Shown: positions 1,264-11,154 of the stretch, piece by piece
Numbering within the stretch: position 1 is the stretch's first letter
How the letters are laid out: every line of letters begins with the position of its first letter
Source of the DNA: Mesoterricola sediminis
Lineage (GTDB): Bacteria; Acidobacteriota; Holophagae; Holophagales; Holophagaceae
Assembly: GCF_030295425.1 (NCBI RefSeq)
Contig: NZ_AP027081.1
Span: 806,001 to 870,000, forward strand
Length of the DNA stretch: 64,000 bases
Direction: 5' to 3'
Notes under the pieces: generated by a model
What the model saw: only the letters and a program-made list of their open reading frames with translations
What the model was told of the DNA's origin: nothing
The model's database searches: none
Position numbers and translations under genes: made by a program

Positions 1264-1938
1264 ATGGCCCAGGCGGTAGTCAATTTGAGGCGGATCGAAT
1301 ACCTGGCGGGCCTGCCGGCGGCAGAAGCCGAGGAACTGGCCGCCGTCAGCGAGCTCAGGAAGTACACCGACGGCACCCCCGTCTTCAGCCAGGGCGAGAC
1401 CATCCCGGGCGTCTTCGTCGTCGTCCAGGGGGCCCTCAAGGTCTTCCGCACCGACGGCCGGGGCAAGGTCCAGGTCATCGACATCCTCCAGCCCGGCACC
1501 TGCGTGGGCGAAGTCCAGGTCTTCGACGGCGGCGTGGCCGCCAGCGGGGCCGAGGCCCACGGGGACACCGAGTGCTGGCTGGTCCCCGCCAACGCCCTGC
1601 GGCTCATGGCCGTCAAGAACAACGCCGTGGCCATGTGCATGATCCAGCACTTCGCCGGCAAGGTGCGCCACCTCATCTCCCTGGTCGAGACCCTGAGCCT
1701 CCACAGCGTCCCCGAGCGCGTGGGCCAGCTGATCCTCGAGTACCAGGGCCGGAATCCCGGCCGCGCGCTGGTCGAGTTCAAGGAGACCCAGGAGGACCTG
1801 GCCCAGTGCATCGGCGCCAGCCGCGAAGCCTTCAGCCGAGCCCTCCGCCTCCTCGCCGACCTCGGCCTGATCCAGAGCACCTTCCCCGTCGTCCGGATCC
1901 TGGATATCCAGAAACTCCAGCGCTACGCCCGCGGCTAA
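1264..1938 (+). CDS. CRP/FNR family transcriptional regulator
   Basis: 224 aa, the usual family length. Residues about 15-125 form the cyclic-nucleotide-binding-like beta-roll (KYTDGTPVFSQGETIPGVFVV, then the GTCVGEVQVFDGG segment), followed by a dimerisation helix and a C-terminal winged helix-turn-helix around 165-215 (TQEDLAQCIGASREAFSRAL). The N-terminal CxxC cluster of oxygen-sensing FNR is absent, and the arginine/serine pair that binds cAMP phosphate is not obvious, so the ligand is unknown. The ATG at 1264 was chosen because it sits just after the palindromic operator and gives the normal N-terminus; a longer open frame begins at 220 but reads through the divergent glycosidase. No co-transcribed gene follows; an IS element lies 200 bp downstream. 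Confidence 0.9.
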   Translation: MAQAVVNLRRIEYLAGLPAAEAEELAAVSELRKYTDGTPVFSQGETIPGVFVVVQGALKVFRTDGRGKVQVIDILQPGTCVGEVQVFDGGVAASGAEAHGDTECWLVPANALRLMAVKNNAVAMCMIQHFAGKVRHLISLVETLSLHSVPERVGQLILEYQGRNPGRALVEFKETQEDLAQCIGASREAFSRALRLLADLGLIQSTFPVVRILDIQKLQRYARG

Positions 1939-2662: not shown

Positions 2663-3418
2663 TCATAGCCTCAGCCAGATCACGATGCAGGCCAAAGCCA
2701 CCTGGGCTGAGAAACTTCGCGCCGTTTTGTCGAACCTGGTGGCCAGCGCCCTGAACTGTTTGAGCTTGGCGAACCCATGCTCGATGGCATGGCGGGCCTT
2801 GTATAGGTGTGAGTCCCAGGCCGCCGGATTCTTGCGCCGGGGATGAGGTGGGATGACGGCTGTCGCACCCATGGCCTCGATCGCCTTCCATACCGGGTTC
2901 CCATCGTAGGCCCGATCTCCGGACACGTACTCTGCCTGCCAACCGCACAGCAATCCTTCAGCAGACCGGCTTTCATGGGCTTGCCCCGGAGTGACCAGGA
3001 AATCCAAAGGATTACCGTGGGCATCGCAGATCAAATGGATCTTGGTCGAGCATCCACCCCGAGATCGTCCGAGCGCCTGGTTCCAGAGCCCCCCCCTTTT
3101 GCCTGCTGAAGGTTGATGAGCGCGAATGATGGTGCCATCCAGCATGACCCACTCCAGGTCGGCTTCCTTGCGCAGGAACTCCAGGATCCTTTGCCACACG
3201 CCGCGCTTGGTCCAGGCCTCAAATCGCGTGTACACGCTTGTCCAAGGTCCAAATTCCTCCGGCAGGTCCCTCCACGGCGCCCCAGTCCTGTGCCTCCACA
3301 GGATCGCCTCCACCATGGGACGGTTGGGGTGACGGGATCGCCCCATCCCTCCACGCTCTGGCGGAAGGAGCGGTTCAAGCTTTGCCCACATGGCATCGGT
3401 CAGGAAACTTCTCGGCAT
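2663..3418 (-). CDS. IS5-family transposase
   Basis: 251 aa DDE transposase. The N-terminus (MPRSFLTDAMWAKLEPLLPP, then the ILWRHRTGAPWRDLPEEFG segment) is the DUF4096-like domain of IS5/IS427-type transposases. Catalytic residues expected for a DDE fold are visible: D in the WVMLDGTI segment (about residue 93), D in SGDRAYDG (about 166), and the acidic residue in the C-terminal HAIEHGFAKLKQFR segment (the YREN-like region, about 213). It appears full length and uninterrupted. The start is 72 bp from the terminal inverted repeat at 3490-3507. Confidence 0.9.
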   Translation of the reverse strand: MPRSFLTDAMWAKLEPLLPPERGGMGRSRHPNRPMVEAILWRHRTGAPWRDLPEEFGPWTSVYTRFEAWTKRGVWQRILEFLRKEADLEWVMLDGTIIRAHQPSAGKRGGLWNQALGRSRGGCSTKIHLICDAHGNPLDFLVTPGQAHESRSAEGLLCGWQAEYVSGDRAYDGNPVWKAIEAMGATAVIPPHPRRKNPAAWDSHLYKARHAIEHGFAKLKQFRALATRFDKTARSFSAQVALACIVIWLRL

Positions 3419-3528: not shown

Positions 3529-3555
3529 AAAAAAAAGGAGGGGCTGTCCGCCCTA
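3529..3555 (-). terminator. Possible Rho-independent terminator of the hemerythrin-Nfn gene
   Basis: On the minus strand, directly after the stop codon, GGGCGGACAGCCCC can form a short GGGC/GCCC stem followed by TCC and eight consecutive T. The stem is short, so this is a modest call. Confidence 0.4.
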
Positions 3556-6318
3556 CCCGTTCGCCTCGGTGAGCTGACGGTGGATGGCCTCGGCCGCGCG
3601 GCGGCCCTGGCCCATGGCGAGGATGACGGTGGCACCGCCGGTGATCACGTCGCCGCCGGCGAAGATGCCGGGCACGGTGGTCTCGCCGGTCTTGGCGTCC
3701 ACGGCGACGACGCCGCCCTTGAGGGTTTCGAGGCGCTTCTCCACCTGGGCCAGCAGGGGATTCACGGAGAAGCCGAGGGCGATGACGAGGGTGTCGCAGG
3801 GCAGGAGGAGGGTGCGGTCCGTGGCGCGGACGCCGCGGCGGCCGTCGGGCCCGGGCTCGGTGAGCTCCATCTCGGCGCACTCGATGTGGGTGATCCAGCC
3901 CTTGTCATTGCCGATGCAGCGGATGGGGTTGGTCAGCCAGTGGAACTGGACGCCCTCCTCCTCGGTGTGCTCGAGCTCCTCCTTGCGGGCGGTGGATTCC
4001 TTGATGGTGCGGCGGTACACGATGGACACGGTGTCGGGGCCCATGCGCCGGGCCGCGCGGGCCGCGTCCATGGCGGTGTTGCCGCACCCGACGACGACCA
4101 CGTGCCGGCCGACGGTCACGGGGGTGCCCGTCTCGGGGAAGAGGTCGGCGCGCATGAGGTTGATGCGGGTGAGGAATTCGTTGGCGGTGTAGATGCCCTT
4201 GCAGTCCTCGCCCGGGATGCCGAGCATCTTGGGCAGGCCGGCCCCGGTGCCCATGAACACGGCGTCGTAGTCCGCCTTGAGCTCGGCCAGGGTCATGCTG
4301 CGCCCCACCAGGGTGTTGAGCACGAACTTCACGCCCATGCGGCGGAGGGTGGCGACTTCCTTGTCCACGATCTCGTTGGGCAGGCGGAACTCGGGGATGC
4401 CGTAGAGGAGCACGCCGCCGGGGCGGTGCAGGGCGTCGAAGACGGTGACGTCGTGGCCCTTCCCGGCGAGCTCGCCGGCCACGGTCAGGCCCGCGGGGCC
4501 GGCGCCGACGACGGCCACCTTCTTGCCGGTGGGGGGGGCCATGGGCGGGGTCTCGGGCTCCGCGGCCAGGAGGGCGTCGGCGGCGAAGCGTTCCAGGCGG
4601 CCGATGGCCACGGGCTCGCCCTTGATGCCCACCACGCACTTGGCCTCGCACTGCTTCTCCTGGGGGCAGACCCGGCCGCAGACGGCGGGCAGGGAGGAGG
4701 ACTGCTTGAGGATGCGGGCGGCCTCGAGGGGGTTGCCCGCCTCGATCTGCTTGACGAACTTGGGGATATCGATGTTGACGGGGCAGCCCTCGATGCACTT
4801 GGGGACCTTGCAGTCCAGGCAGCGGGCGGCCTCGAGCCGGGCCTGCTCGGGGTTCAGGACGAGGGTGACCTCGCGGAAGTTGGCGACCCGGTGGGAGGGT
4901 TCCTGGCAGGCCGCGACCTGGCGGGGGATCTTCATGCGCTGGGCGGGCTTGAGGGTGGGGAGGTCCAGGTTCTGCCAGTCCAGGTCGGCCACGGGGGCGA
5001 TGAACGGCAGATCGGCGTCGGTGACGGGATGGGAGGGCAGGCCCAGGTTGCAGACGTGGTCGGAAGCCTTGGTCTCGTCGGCGCGGTACCAGTCCTGGCG
5101 CATGCGGAGCTGGGCGAAGTCGACCTTGTGGCCGTCGAAGTCGGGGCCGTCGAAGCAGGCGAACTTCTGCTCGCCGCCGACCGTGACGCGGCAGCCGCCG
5201 CACATGCCGGTGCCGTCCACCATGAGCGCGTTCAGGCTCACCAGGGTGAAGATGCCCTTGGGCCGGGTGGCCTCGGAGACGGCCTGCATCATGGGCATGG
5301 GGCCGACGGCGATGACCTCGGCGATGGGCTCGCGCTCGATGAGTTCGGCCAGGGGATGGGTGACGATGCCCTTGCGGCCGAGGCTCCCGTCGTCGGTGGT
5401 GATGATGAGCTCGTCGCTGGCGGCCTCCAGTTCCGCGGCCAGGAGCACGCGCTCGCGGCTGCGGCCGCCGAGGATGGTGATGACCTTCTGGCCGCGGGCC
5501 TTGAGGGCCTTGGCCGCCGGGAGGATGGCGGCGCTGCCGTATCCGCCGGCCACCAGGACGACGGTGCCCGTCTCCACGAGCTCGGTGGGCTCGCCCATGG
5601 GGCCCGCCACCGCGAAGAGCTTGTCGCCGGCGCTCAGCCTGCCCATGGCGCGCGTGGTCGCGCCCACCTCGACCATGATGAAGCGGATCCAGCCGGCGCG
5701 GGGGTCGCCGTCGGCGAGGGTGAGGGGGATGCGCTCGCTGGTGGGGAAGGGGGCCACCATCAGGAACTGGCCGGGCTTGCGGCCCCGGGCCACCATGGGG
5801 GCCTGGACGACGAAGCTCCAGGTCTCGGGGGCCAGCAGCTCCTTCTCGAGGATGAGGTAGCCGTCCTCGTTCACCTCGGCGCCCATGTAGAGGGACTTGC
5901 CCTTGAGGAGGGGCAGCATGACCCGCTCCTCGGTCTCGATGTGCTGGCGGACCAGGTCCAGGAGCTTGCGCGCCACCTCCAGGTAGGGGCCCTGCTCCCG
6001 CACGCTGCCGCCGTCGTTGCCGCTCAGCAGGTGGAGGGTGAGGTCCCACATCTCCCGGTGGTCGCCCACGAGCTGGTCCATGAGGGCCTCGGCGCCCAGC
6101 TCCTCCAGCAGGGGGAGGAGTTCGCGTTCCTCGGCCTCGTTGTGGGGCCGGAGCACCTCGTAGATCCAGCGGGCGGCCCGCTCCATGCCGACCCAGTCCC
6201 GCCCCGCGATCGCGGCGTCCAGCTCCGTGAGCTTGCCGAGGGCGGTGAGGTGCAGGAGGTGCCACTCGCCCATGGACGTCTCGTCGTGGACCAGGGCAAA
6301 GGAGGGGGCTGGGGACAT
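3553..6318 (-). CDS. Hemerythrin-NfnAB fusion (NADPH-dependent ferredoxin:NAD oxidoreductase / GltD-like)
   Basis: 921 aa three-part fusion. Residues about 10-150 are an HHE hemerythrin domain: EWHLLHLT, LRPHNEAEERELLPLL, VGDHREMW and RQHIETEERVMLPLL give the His/Glu di-iron ligands. Residues about 155-430 are the FAD/NAD module of NfnA, also called sulfide dehydrogenase or DHOD electron-transfer subunit, with VLVAGGYGSAAILP and a [2Fe-2S] motif in GTGMCGGCRVTVGG plus FACFDGP. Residues about 480-915 are NfnB/GltD: two Cys-rich 4Fe-4S motifs (CLDCKVPKCIEGCP and CGRVCPQEKQCEAKC), a VAVVGAGPAGL FAD site and a VVVVGCGNTAMDAA NADPH site. Nfn bifurcates electrons between NADH, ferredoxin and NADPH in anaerobes; the N-terminal hemerythrin suggests O2 or NO sensing or scavenging at the flavoenzyme. 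No glutaminase/GltB partner is next to it. Divergent from arcC. Confidence 0.88.
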   Translation of the reverse strand: MSPAPSFALVHDETSMGEWHLLHLTALGKLTELDAAIAGRDWVGMERAARWIYEVLRPHNEAEERELLPLLEELGAEALMDQLVGDHREMWDLTLHLLSGNDGGSVREQGPYLEVARKLLDLVRQHIETEERVMLPLLKGKSLYMGAEVNEDGYLILEKELLAPETWSFVVQAPMVARGRKPGQFLMVAPFPTSERIPLTLADGDPRAGWIRFIMVEVGATTRAMGRLSAGDKLFAVAGPMGEPTELVETGTVVLVAGGYGSAAILPAAKALKARGQKVITILGGRSRERVLLAAELEAASDELIITTDDGSLGRKGIVTHPLAELIEREPIAEVIAVGPMPMMQAVSEATRPKGIFTLVSLNALMVDGTGMCGGCRVTVGGEQKFACFDGPDFDGHKVDFAQLRMRQDWYRADETKASDHVCNLGLPSHPVTDADLPFIAPVADLDWQNLDLPTLKPAQRMKIPRQVAACQEPSHRVANFREVTLVLNPEQARLEAARCLDCKVPKCIEGCPVNIDIPKFVKQIEAGNPLEAARILKQSSSLPAVCGRVCPQEKQCEAKCVVGIKGEPVAIGRLERFAADALLAAEPETPPMAPPTGKKVAVVGAGPAGLTVAGELAGKGHDVTVFDALHRPGGVLLYGIPEFRLPNEIVDKEVATLRRMGVKFVLNTLVGRSMTLAELKADYDAVFMGTGAGLPKMLGIPGEDCKGIYTANEFLTRINLMRADLFPETGTPVTVGRHVVVVGCGNTAMDAARAARRMGPDTVSIVYRRTIKESTARKEELEHTEEEGVQFHWLTNPIRCIGNDKGWITHIECAEMELTEPGPDGRRGVRATDRTLLLPCDTLVIALGFSVNPLLAQVEKRLETLKGGVVAVDAKTGETTVPGIFAGGDVITGGATVILAMGQGRRAAEAIHRQLTEANG

Positions 6319-6437: not shown

Positions 6438-6465
6438 TTGAAAAAATTTTACTCTCATTTATAAA
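6438..6465 (+). promoter_or_regulatory. Sigma70-like promoter of arcC
   Basis: TTGAAA at 6438-6443 and TATAAA at 6460-6465, 16-nt spacer, inside an unusually AT-rich 50-bp stretch in a GC-rich genome. A GGAGG ribosome-binding site follows at about 6479-6483, five bases before the arcC ATG. Confidence 0.65.
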
Positions 6466-6487
6466 TTTTTTTCACCCTGGAGGTTCC

Positions 6488-7432
6488 ATGGCCCGCACCG
6501 TCGTCATCGCCATCGGCGGCAATTCCCTCATCGCCGACGAAACCCGCCAGTCGGTGGCCGACCAGTACGCGGCGGCCGCCGCCACCTGCGAGCACATCGC
6601 CGCCCTCCTCCAGGGCGAGGACCTCCGCCTGGTGGTGACCCACGGCAACGGGCCGCAGGTGGGCTTCATCCTCCGGCGCTCGGAGCTGGCGGCCCAGGAA
6701 CTCCACATCGTGCCCCTGGACTCCTGCGTGGCCGACACCCAGGGGGCCCTGGGCTACCACCTCCAGCGGGCCCTGCGGAACGCCTTCCGGACCCGAGGGG
6801 TCGCCCGGACTCCCGTCACGGTCGTCACCCAGGTGCTGGTGGACCGGGCCGATCCGGCCTTCGCCAAGCCCAACAAGCCCATCGGCTCCTTCATGAATGC
6901 CGAGCTGGCCGACAAGCATCGCCGGGAGGACGGGTGGGACCTGGTGGAGGACGCGGGCCGGGGCTACCGGCGCGTCGTGGCCTCCCCCCGTCCCAAGGCC
7001 ATCCTGGAACTGGAGGCCGTGCGGGAACTCCTGGACGCGGGCTTCGTGGTGGTGGCCGGCGGGGGCGGGGGCATTCCCGTGGTGGAGGACGCCGAAGGTC
7101 GCCTGACTGGGGCGGCGGCGGTGATCGACAAGGACCTGGCCTCAAGCCTGATGGCCCGGCAGCTTGGAGCGGAACTGCTCGTCATCTCCACGGCCGTGGA
7201 GCAGGTGTGCCTGGATTTCGGGAAGCCCACCCAGCGGGCGCTTGCCACCCTGACCCTGGCCGACGCCCGGCGCTACATCGACGAGGGGCACTTCAAGCCG
7301 GGCAGCATGCTGCCCAAGATCCAGGCCGTGGTGGCCTTCCTGGAGGGGGGCGGCAAGGAGGCGATCATCACCGATCCGGCCCACCTGCCCGCGGCCCTGC
7401 GCGGCGAGGCCGGCACCCGGATCACGGCCTGA
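6488..7432 (+). CDS. arcC: Carbamate kinase
   Basis: 314 aa, normal length. Catalyses carbamoyl phosphate + ADP to ATP + carbamate (+NH3), the ATP-yielding last step of arginine deiminase or related purine/allantoin routes. Amino acid kinase fold: VVIAIGGNSLI at the N-terminus, THGNGPQVG near residue 55, PNKPIGSFM near 130, VVAGGGGGIPVV near 190, and a VIDKDLASSLMA segment near 215. The start is set by a strong GGAGG Shine-Dalgarno. arcA and arcB are not adjacent. The gene ends by overlapping the convergent hemerythrin gene by 11 bp. Confidence 0.93.
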   Translation: MARTVVIAIGGNSLIADETRQSVADQYAAAAATCEHIAALLQGEDLRLVVTHGNGPQVGFILRRSELAAQELHIVPLDSCVADTQGALGYHLQRALRNAFRTRGVARTPVTVVTQVLVDRADPAFAKPNKPIGSFMNAELADKHRREDGWDLVEDAGRGYRRVVASPRPKAILELEAVRELLDAGFVVVAGGGGGIPVVEDAEGRLTGAAAVIDKDLASSLMARQLGAELLVISTAVEQVCLDFGKPTQRALATLTLADARRYIDEGHFKPGSMLPKIQAVVAFLEGGGKEAIITDPAHLPAALRGEAGTRITA

Positions 7433-7892
7433 GGGGTCCTGCTTCGTCCTGGAGGTGCTGGGCGAAGGCCCGGTCCGTCCCCAGGAAGTGCTCGGTGAGC
7501 CAAGCGGCCAGGAAGGACACCAGCTCCTCCAGATCGCTGGTGCTGCCGGCCCGGTAGGTGTTGACCAGGCGATCCAGGTAGGCCCGGGCCCGCTCATGCT
7601 CGTCCGCGTGGGCGGCCAGCTCCGGGAAGCCCTTTTCCGCCATGAGGTTTTCCTCGGTGCGGAAATGGGTGTGCACATAGACGATGAGGAAGGAGAGGAT
7701 GCGCCAGACCTCTTCCTGGGTCTGGCCGCAGGCGATGGCGAAGGCCAGACGGTTGACCCCGGTGACGAGGGCCTTGTGCTGGCTGTCGAGGCGGGGATCC
7801 CCCGTTTCCCAGGCCGGGTCCCAGGCGAGGGGGGTCAGGCGGGAGGTCCGGGCGGGGCTGGGGGCCAGGGGGTTGGGAAGGCAATCGTTCAT
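7422..7892 (-). CDS. Bacteriohemerythrin
   Basis: 156 aa single-domain O2-binding di-iron protein. Ligand positions are visible: H in DSQHKALV, HTHFRTEE (H and E), HADEHERARAYLDR (H), and LTEHFLGTDRAF (H and D). The N-terminal W in LAWDPAWETG is the usual start of the fold. Cytoplasmic oxygen store or delivery protein, or an O2/NO sensor. It is the second hemerythrin within 4 kb (the first is fused to NfnAB), which suggests O2 handling as a theme of this cluster. Convergent with arcC with an 11-bp overlap. Confidence 0.92.
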   Translation of the reverse strand: MNDCLPNPLAPSPARTSRLTPLAWDPAWETGDPRLDSQHKALVTGVNRLAFAIACGQTQEEVWRILSFLIVYVHTHFRTEENLMAEKGFPELAAHADEHERARAYLDRLVNTYRAGSTSDLEELVSFLAAWLTEHFLGTDRAFAQHLQDEAGPLRP

Positions 7893-9137: not shown

Positions 9138-9168
9138 GCCCGAGTATAGCGGGCCGGCCCGCCCGGGC

Positions 9169-11082
9169 TCAGAAGGGGGACTTGGGGTAGAGGCTGACGA
9201 TCCGCTCCCGGTCCTCGCTGAGGCGGACGACGAGGAGGGACGAGGGGACCCACTGGCCGTCCGTCCAGCGTTGCGCCTCGCCGATCTCCCGGCCCATGGG
9301 GTGGAAGATCAGCCAGGTGCGGTCCATGTTGGGCACGGGCGTATGGCCGGCCTCCAGGGCCTCCCGGGCGAAGGCCAGGAGGGTCTCCCGGTTGCTGTCC
9401 GCCAGGTGGAAGCGGCTGCGGTCCGGGCCGCCCGGGTGGAAGTGGCGCTGGGCCACATGGTCCCAGTCGAGGGTGGCCAGGAGGGCCTCGACGGTGGGGC
9501 GCGGCCGCTGGGGCAGTTCCAGGGTGGGCAGGAGGGGCTTGGCGGGCGCCGCGGTCTTCTCCTCCACCGGCGCTGGCCGGGGCTTGGCCGGGGCCTTGGG
9601 CTCCACCTCGGGTTCGGGGGCGGCCAGGGTCACGACGAGGGACCCCACGGTGCCGCGCCCGGCCAGGAGGCAGTAGAGCCGGCCATCCCCGCCGTCGATG
9701 AGCTGGGTGGGGCGGCTGCCCTTGGGCAGGGCGGTCCAGGTCAGCTTGCCCTCCGGATCCACGCGGCCCAGGCGGCCCCCCTCGGGATCGGTGAACCACA
9801 GGCACCCGTCGGGGCCCTCGGTGAGGGCGGGCTGGGTCAGGCGCTTGCCCGTATCCAGGGTCCCTTTCTGGATGGCCACGGGGTCCAGCCACTGGAGCGA
9901 CCCGTCCAGGTGGACCCAGATGCGGCCCGACCGGAGGCGCAGGGCCCGGTAGCTCCCCGGGTCCTGGGCGGGCAGGCCCACCAGGAAGGGCTTCAGGGCG
10001 CGTTCCCCGAGCTCGGCCCGGCCCGGAATGAGGCTGAAGGCGTGGACGCCCGGGGCCAGGCCCTGGAAGCCCATGCTGTCCCCGAAGGGTCCGTGGCCGT
10101 AGCCGTAGGTCCGGAGCTGCAGGCTGGGCCACCGGCTGGCGATGCTCGCGGCCGCCAGATCCTGGCCCAGGGCGGCCCGGTACTTGAGGCCCTTCTCCAG
10201 GTCCAGGAATTCGAGGGCCTTCCCCGTGGGCGCGTAGAGCTCGGGCCGCGTGGGGAGGGCCTGGCCGTGGGCGATGACCTCGAAGGGCACGTCCCGGCCG
10301 CGGCGCGCGTCCTCCAGGGTGTAGGCGCCCAGGCAGAACTGGACCAGGTGCTGGGTGGCCGGCATCGCCACGTAGAGGTCCCCGGCGGGGGCCGGCCCGA
10401 TCCACGCGACGGGGCTCGGGGCCAGCAGGATGCTCACCAGGTCCGGCAGGACGATGAGGAGGGTCTTCCCGTCGCCGCACAGGACGGCGAAGCCGTCCCC
10501 GGCGGCGCCGCCCCGCAGGTGGGTGAGCTGCCGGGGATCGCCGTGCAGGGAATGCAGGCCCATTTCCTGGAAGGCGCCCACCCAGCCCTCCCCCCGGAAG
10601 AACTCGGCGTAGGAGGCGGTCAGGTGGGCCAGGGCCCCCCGGGCCTCGGCCACCGCGGGGTCCTCGGCGGCGGCCGAGGCCCGGATCCAGTCGTCCACGG
10701 GGTGGATGAGGCGGCCGTCCGGATCCAGGGTGTCCCGGAAGGTGACCGTCCGGTCGGCCCGGGTCCGGGCCGGCAGGCGCGCCCCCGTCAGGTCGGCGCG
10801 GGTGAAGTCGGCGTGGCGGAGGGAGAGTCCCGTGAAATCCACGCCCTGGAGCCGCGCGTCCGTGAAGTCGGCGCCCTCCAGGTCGAAGAGGCTGGAGGCG
10901 CGGTCCATCAGCCGAACCCCCGTCTGGAAGGTGGCCCCCCGGAAGTCCAGCTCCCGGCACAACCGGCCCACGGTGATGGCGCGGCCGTGCCGGTCCGTGC
11001 CCACCACCCGGTCGTCCGGATCCTGGGCCAGCGCGGCCCCACCGGCCAGGCAGGCCACAAAGAACAAAGATCCCCACCGCAT
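9169..11082 (-). CDS. Secreted pentapeptide-repeat / beta-propeller protein
   Basis: 637 aa with a Sec signal peptide (SLFFVACLAGGAALA|QD). Residues about 45-105 are pentapeptide repeats (LDFRGATF, ADFTDARLQGVDFTG, HADFTRADLTGARL), which form a right-handed quadrilateral beta-helix. The middle (about 190-485) contains repeated strands such as EGPDGCLWFTDPEGGRLGRV and IDGGDGRLYCLLAGRG, typical of NHL or Vgb-like propellers. A Pro/Lys-rich linker (about 492-525) leads to a C-terminal domain of about 110 residues (LDWDHVAQRHFHPGGPDRSR). The architecture is unusual; function unknown. No neighbour obviously shares an operon with it. Confidence 0.7.
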   Translation of the reverse strand: MRWGSLFFVACLAGGAALAQDPDDRVVGTDRHGRAITVGRLCRELDFRGATFQTGVRLMDRASSLFDLEGADFTDARLQGVDFTGLSLRHADFTRADLTGARLPARTRADRTVTFRDTLDPDGRLIHPVDDWIRASAAAEDPAVAEARGALAHLTASYAEFFRGEGWVGAFQEMGLHSLHGDPRQLTHLRGGAAGDGFAVLCGDGKTLLIVLPDLVSILLAPSPVAWIGPAPAGDLYVAMPATQHLVQFCLGAYTLEDARRGRDVPFEVIAHGQALPTRPELYAPTGKALEFLDLEKGLKYRAALGQDLAAASIASRWPSLQLRTYGYGHGPFGDSMGFQGLAPGVHAFSLIPGRAELGERALKPFLVGLPAQDPGSYRALRLRSGRIWVHLDGSLQWLDPVAIQKGTLDTGKRLTQPALTEGPDGCLWFTDPEGGRLGRVDPEGKLTWTALPKGSRPTQLIDGGDGRLYCLLAGRGTVGSLVVTLAAPEPEVEPKAPAKPRPAPVEEKTAAPAKPLLPTLELPQRPRPTVEALLATLDWDHVAQRHFHPGGPDRSRFHLADSNRETLLAFAREALEAGHTPVPNMDRTWLIFHPMGREIGEAQRWTDGQWVPSSLLVVRLSEDRERIVSLYPKSPF

Positions 11083-11154
11083 CGACTCAACACCCTCCCG
11101 GCCCCGGGGGGCCTCGGTATCAAGTGGCGGCAGGGACCTTCGGGTTCCGGCGCG

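Follow-up and report, generated by a model that had tools for sequence, protein, structure and literature searches.

The locus described here raises the question of what a hemerythrin-like (HHE) domain does at the N terminus of Nfn, a model electron-bifurcating enzyme that keeps NADH, NADPH and ferredoxin in balance and whose chemistry is usually treated as anaerobic. The window, the stretch of 64,000 nucleotides analysed here, comes from a 4.52-Mb genome that is complete on a single contig and holds 16 HHE-domain matches in all.

Architecture of the fused protein

A preliminary description of the window placed at 3553-6318 a single chain of 921 residues, in which an HHE domain precedes a [2Fe-2S] NfnA part and a [4Fe-4S] NfnB part. 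Pfam and NCBIfam domains bear out this architecture and the coordinates are correct; the gene lies on the minus strand, which had been left unsaid, and the plus-strand frame over the same interval is merely open because of the high GC content. The features of the gene are:

3553..6318, minus strand: HHE-NfnA-NfnB fusion gene, a single uninterrupted ORF of 921 aa (Pfam/NCBIfam domains; family orthologs)
5881..6264, minus strand: HHE (hemerythrin-like) domain, residues 19-146 (Pfam PF01814, 46 bits; AlphaFold helices; invariant ligand columns)
6250-6252 (H23), 6142-6144 (H59), 6130-6132 (E63), 6058-6060 (H87), 5941-5943 (H126) and 5929-5931 (E130), minus strand: candidate HHE ligands
5860..5880, minus strand: short linker, residues 147-153, from helix D to the first NfnA strand (full-length model with a low pLDDT over 140-152; alignment)
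5059..5859, minus strand: NfnA module, residues 154-420, with FAD, NAD and [2Fe-2S] (D368/C373/C376/C388) sites (PRK06222, 343 bits; 5jca_S match; invariant ligand columns)
3565..4923, minus strand: NfnB module, residues 466-918, with FAD, NADP and two [4Fe-4S] (C500/C503/C508/C512/C551/C557/C561/E576) sites (TIGR01316, 556 bits; 4ylf_B and 5jca_L matches; invariant columns)
6446..6475, minus strand: promoter-like site upstream of the fusion gene, a consensus match only (2 sites in the region, with 0.2 expected from shuffled sequence)

The Pfam Hemerythrin match at residues 24-138 scores 46.1 bits against a cut-off of 25.3, and DHODB_Fe-S_bind (364-400), Fer4_20 (477-584) and Pyr_redox_2 (599-905) follow along the 921-aa protein. 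PRK06222 covers residues 154-423 (cut-off 220 bits) and TIGR01316 covers 474-914 (cut-off 472 bits); PRK12778, the fused NfnAB equivalog (NF009414), matches residues 155-918 with 941 bits, under its cut-off of 1103. The nearest solved structures to the Nfn part are Thermotoga maritima NfnAB (4ylf) and Pyrococcus furiosus NfnI (5jca), at about 50% identity, and the best PDB match to the NfnA module is the NfnI small subunit (5jca_S, E 9e-79). The four [2Fe-2S] and eight [4Fe-4S] positions are invariant in 49 orthologs and in a second alignment; we take their roles as cluster ligands from known Nfn and dihydropyrimidine dehydrogenase structures. We identify the gene product with high confidence as a fused Nfn with an N-terminal HHE domain, which would be expected to carry out electron bifurcation, coupling NADP+ reduction to NADH and reduced ferredoxin.

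TIGR01316 bears the title NADPH-dependent glutamate synthase, and the enzyme part could accordingly be read as the small subunit of glutamate synthase (GltD) rather than Nfn. The large subunit encoded in the window genome (PRK11750, 1178 bits; L180:7670-12148, minus strand) has no adjacent gltD, and a clear stand-alone gltD was not found in the complete genome. We nevertheless regard this assignment as very improbable: a complete NfnA half is present, NfnI and NfnAB lead the matches in both structure and sequence, well above GltD, and the fusion gene is not linked to gltB.

The fusion is not an assembly artefact, because single-ORF orthologs of 86-69% identity recur across 47 genomes, including several single-contig genomes, with contig-cut copies besides. 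A sequencing error or frame join between two genes, the source of doubt named in the preliminary description, is thereby ruled out.

Ligands and type of the HHE site

In the AlphaFold model of the HHE domain (pLDDT 86.9), helices at 13-38, 42-66, 77-100 and 109-146 form a four-helix bundle; the full-length model is moderate (pLDDT 73.8, pTM 0.64), with low pLDDT at 140-152. The domain passes the Pfam gathering score and carries the ligand series H/HxxxE/H/HxxxE over its four helices, with one His each on helices A and C and HxxxE on helices B and D. H59, E63, H87, H126 and E130 are invariant in 49 of 49 orthologs, as is H23 in the 48 that reach this position, one row being truncated. Invariant columns make up 26 of the 127 in the domain (20%), the other 80% varying. 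Were the columns independent, the chance of finding all of six given ones invariant would be about 7e-5, a figure that is a rough guide because the ortholog rows are related. The full His/Glu set claimed from the sequence is thus present as six invariant candidate diiron ligands, contrary to the possibility that they would be absent in an alignment, and a diiron iron content is predicted from them.

The ligand set is of the 4-His/2-Glu kind (RIC/ScdA-like), not the 5-His kind of O2 carriers. An O2-carrier hemerythrin was considered and rejected: W91 stands in place of the second helix-C His, helix D carries HxxxE rather than HxxxxD, and TIGR02481 (bacteriohemerythrin) scores 14.8 bits against a cut-off of 51.75, with NF033749 not listed. 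As the O2-carrier features are absent, a RIC/ScdA/FBXL5-type site remains. Sites of this type have described roles in NO, nitrite and peroxide chemistry, in protection or repair of Fe-S clusters and in iron sensing. A profile search with the HHE domain found no PDB relative by sequence, and Foldseek on the domain alone returned mostly generic four-helix bundles. In VIA-align, 3cax (PF0695) reached Z 14.2 and 2p0n reached Z 13.1, and the fold match alone is not decisive because these scores barely exceed those of unrelated bundles.

Distribution of the fusion

Relatives with names in public records belong to Holophagaceae or Holophagales (Acidobacteriota). The earlier expectation of a conserved fusion in several anaerobes holds: in the window's family, which is Holophagaceae-like, HHE-Nfn is present in about 57 of the 77 genomes, some copies being cut by contig ends. 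This count derives from a query spanning the HHE-NfnA junction, which matched 61 of the 77; three of these (genus g11) match in the NfnA part only and one (G076) has a standalone HHE. Genera g2, g4, g10 and g11 of the family are without HHE-Nfn.

Three phyla were sampled beyond the family level. Across 396 Acidobacteriota genomes, of which about 39 belong to the family, coverage of HHE plus NfnA occurred only inside the family among the matches listed, and no fusion was seen in the roughly 350 genomes outside it among those same matches. At a threshold of 1e-12, there was no match in 392 genomes around a Planctomycetota locus or in 395 around a Bacteroidota locus. Among the matches listed, a search of contigs giving at least 80 loci covered HHE only in Holophagaceae-like ones, and plasmid records yielded Nfn relatives alone, none with HHE coverage. 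Several other long NfnA-containing ORFs in Acidobacteriota proved to be NfnAB with linkers or other fusions, with HHE in none, and literature searches that paired hemerythrin with Nfn or NfnAB yielded no open paper describing such a fusion. HHE-NfnAB is a genuine new variant of Nfn, conserved in the window's family.

Two records from these searches deserve separate mention. L010, labelled 'Bacillota bacterium MH_R1_5', covers HHE and is the same contig as one in G069 of the window's family, so the Bacillota label is likely mistaken. An open frame of 1251 aa in G061 was considered as carrying an extra N-terminal domain and set aside, its upstream part being without a Pfam domain.

Evolution of the HHE and Nfn parts

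Fused NfnAB proteins of the family form a single clade (100/100). The g11 proteins, which are fused NfnAB without HHE, are nested among HHE bearers in the best tree (86/86), and this nesting therefore suggests one HHE gain followed by one loss in g11 rather than a gain after the g11 split; an alternative tree with HHE monophyly is not rejected (p-AU 0.33). Between orthologs that differ, the HHE domain shows dN/dS of 0.05-0.42, so that it evolves faster than the Nfn part yet under constraint. The fusion is conserved in the family under purifying selection.

Two genomes separate the histories of the parts. G077 carries two HHE-NfnAB copies (L124 and L125); their Nfn parts sit close together in the tree, and their HHE domains are only about half identical. 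Compared with the window protein, its second copy has 88-89% identity in NfnAB and 52% in HHE, with all ligands kept. In G076, of the window's genus, the syntenic site of the fusion, beside BipA and PilT-like genes, is occupied by split nfnA (L140:8312-9157) and nfnB (9161-10576) genes and a standalone HHE gene (10628-11131). The two Nfn halves fall in another clade, at about 51% identity; their sister there is G079, and a Phycisphaerales sequence follows. The standalone HHE, 51 bp downstream of the split pair, is 167 aa long, scores 47 bits and keeps the complete set of six ligands. Its tail, GYLML, is similar to the beginning of the first NfnA strand, GYLILEK, and in an HHE-only tree it falls on the side of the window's genus across a 96/98 branch. 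Although G076 is listed with 8% contamination, the whole cassette shares a single 11-kb contig with neighbours typical of the genus. These features are most simply read as an exchange of the enzyme in which its HHE was retained as a separate subunit.

These histories bear on two alternatives. HHE might be a passive appendage, serving in folding, dimerisation or docking or holding an inconsequential metal site on an ordinary NfnAB, as its faster evolution, the HHE-less fused NfnAB of the close relatives in g11 and the functioning of NfnAB without HHE in most of life (PMC6405883) would allow. The metal ligands are invariant while most HHE positions drift, in the second G077 copy and the standalone G076 protein as well, and we assign this alternative little probability. 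HHE might instead be a sensor or gate, its diiron state shifting with O2, NO or iron supply and switching bifurcation allosterically, with no turnover of oxidant. The hemerythrin-like domain of FBXL5, which senses iron, is a model for such a device, and the 4-His/2-Glu order is consistent with HHE sensors that are not O2 carriers. Long proteins with a hemerythrin domain often have a signalling domain joined to it (PMC4919030), and the second G077 copy has diverged in HHE while its enzyme part has not, as in the retuning of an input domain. No output linkage is known for the domain, however, which sits on an enzyme rather than a signalling domain, and a separate polypeptide as in G076 suits a scavenger better than a covalent gate, although a subunit could still gate. 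A sensor or gate seems to us improbable but worth serious consideration.

Genomic neighbourhood and linkage to PFOR

Two neighbours of the fusion gene have counterparts elsewhere in the family:

6485..7432, plus strand: carbamate kinase, divergent from the fusion gene (PRK12352, 414 bits), also beside it in G073, G077 and G075
1300..1938, plus strand: Crp/Fnr-type regulator (putative start), convergent with the fusion gene (cNMP_binding, HTH_Crp_2); a regulator of this family is also convergent with it in G060 and G072

One gene away lies a bacteriohemerythrin of the O2-binding type (7422-7892, minus strand) that passes TIGR02481 and NF033749. An IS5-family transposase (2663-3418, minus strand) sits just 3' of the fusion gene and was not seen there in G073 or G077; an ORF matching the antisense reading of this transposase also occurs near 3.098 Mb of the window genome.

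In g3, the largest genus, HHE-NfnAB is followed by co-oriented genes for pyruvate:ferredoxin oxidoreductase (PFOR; TIGR02176, 1808 bits) and a DHOD-like protein (PRK07565) at 17 of the 18 loci with downstream sequence, the sole exception being L147; the gap after HHE-NfnAB is mostly about 115 bp. These clusters mostly stand behind a CHASE/PAS histidine kinase, and Rrf2-family regulators come after them in most cases. At L149:16061-17153, for instance, two Rrf2-family regulators on opposite strands lie past the nfn-PFOR-DHOD cluster, as in most g3 genomes; the Rrf2 family includes Fe-S and NO sensors. The three genes also stand together in g5 (G060), in the order PFOR, DHOD-like, HHE-NfnAB. The linkage is not universal, because in the window genome the PFOR gene (76% identical), with a DHOD-like gene and an adjoining rubrerythrin gene, is at 3.105 Mb, 2.3 Mb from the fusion.

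Linkage to PFOR and retention of HHE in G076 both support a coupling of HHE to Nfn function and make a protective or regulatory role at the enzyme plausible; they do not separate scavenging from sensing, the two roles towards O2 or NO raised in the preliminary description. The PFOR linkage also bears on a repair or iron-store role, in which HHE would be a RIC-like module giving or recovering iron where Fe-S clusters in Nfn or PFOR are damaged. Consistent with such a role, the six-ligand order is identical to that of the RIC protein ScdA, an Fe-S-rich client adjoins in g3 and g5, and Rrf2-family regulators are nearby. We think it unlikely, as a Pfam scan of the fusion protein found no N-terminal ScdA_N-type (RIC) domain and the role of the Campylobacter jejuni hemerythrins is protection rather than repair (PMC4257069).

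A proposed local guard

We propose that the fused protein is an Nfn-type, FAD-based electron-bifurcating NADH/ferredoxin:NADP oxidoreductase whose N-terminal four-helix HHE domain holds a non-heme diiron site serving as a local guard. The site would meet O2, H2O2 or NO beside the Nfn flavins and Fe-S clusters and dispose of the oxidant with electrons from the flavin/[2Fe-2S] side of NfnA. It would in this way protect Nfn and, in relatives, the co-encoded PFOR, and would drain NAD(P)H or ferredoxin once oxygen appears. We favour this guard tentatively, with somewhat less than even confidence; the iron content of the site, the flow of electrons to it, the identity of the oxidant and bifurcation itself are inferred parts of the proposal.

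At the level of sequence, the guard is favoured by six invariant ligands amid 80% varying columns, by the G077 copy that keeps them, by the HHE of G076 and by the PFOR linkage in g3 and g5. Against it we count the faster evolution of HHE than of Nfn, as a peripheral domain might show, together with the incomplete reach of the PFOR linkage, the several family genera without HHE-Nfn and the moderate full-length model. In Campylobacter jejuni, hemerythrins shield Por and Oor, two enzymes of the PFOR type, against oxygen (PMC4257069); this is a precedent for the role only, because HerA and HerB are free-standing proteins of the classical type, unlike the fused 4-His/2-Glu domain. On the chemical side, ScdA, whose ligands come in the same order, reduces nitrite and loses this activity when any ligand is mutated (PMC12412097), and a mycobacterial hemerythrin-like protein is a NO peroxidase (PMC8913304). 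As precedents for the design, the fusion of a flavodiiron protein, rubredoxin and reductase makes an oxidase that is self-sufficient (PMC9364112), and NCBIfam describes a fusion of NfnAB with ferritin (NF009413).

A bolder form of the guard would make the protein a self-contained diiron oxidase or reductase driven by a bifurcating transhydrogenase, in which O2, peroxide or NO diverts electrons through NfnA to HHE and switches the enzyme between NADPH supply and oxidant removal. We consider this form possible but doubtful.

A family of bacteria that joins an HHE module to Nfn, and retains it nearby even where the enzyme was exchanged, provides a natural experiment on the protection or tuning of low-potential metabolism under fluctuating oxygen, for which fused, split and HHE-less versions of Nfn within a single family are ready-made controls. 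We know of no earlier hemerythrin-type site fed by an electron-bifurcating enzyme, and the oxidase or reductase reading, if true, would as far as we know provide the first.

Comparison with known systems

The HHE domain shares its ligand order, H ... HxxxE ... H ... HxxxE, with the RIC family (ScdA, YtfE) and other 4-His/2-Glu HHE proteins (PMC12412097). It differs from RIC proteins in being without their N-terminal domain and in being fused to a flavin/Fe-S reductase. The design, in which a diiron site is joined to an NAD(P)H reductase of its own, recalls the Class F flavodiiron proteins (FDP-rubredoxin-NROR fusions, PMC9364112); the folds are unrelated, and the function shown there is here proposed.

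The enzyme part has the NfnA and NfnB modules and all Fe-S ligand positions in common with P. furiosus NfnI and T. maritima NfnAB, at the identity of about 50% given above, whereas here they form a single chain with an N-terminal HHE diiron-type domain. The NfnA pyridine-nucleotide motif (residues 258-267) reads GGYGSAAILP in nearly all orthologs and in the HHE-less g11, in place of the GGVGxAPxLP of aligned Bacteroidota Nfn, a change that may affect NAD binding.

The order NfnA-NfnB in one polypeptide is that of the fused Nfn of 'Pattern B', known from Clostridium autoethanogenum and Bacteroidaceae (PMC6405883). The review that defines four such patterns, A-D, describes none with a hemerythrin domain, a word absent from the paper, and holds that fused nfn is unduplicated (PMC6405883); G077, by contrast, carries two copies. 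In NF009413/PRK12775, NfnAB with a C-terminal ferritin domain, an iron-protein domain is likewise joined to NfnAB. The window protein matches positions 2-755 of the 1006 in that model (769 bits, cut-off 1895) and ends at NfnB; the ferritin-like fold there stands at the C-terminal end, and the HHE domain here at the opposite one.
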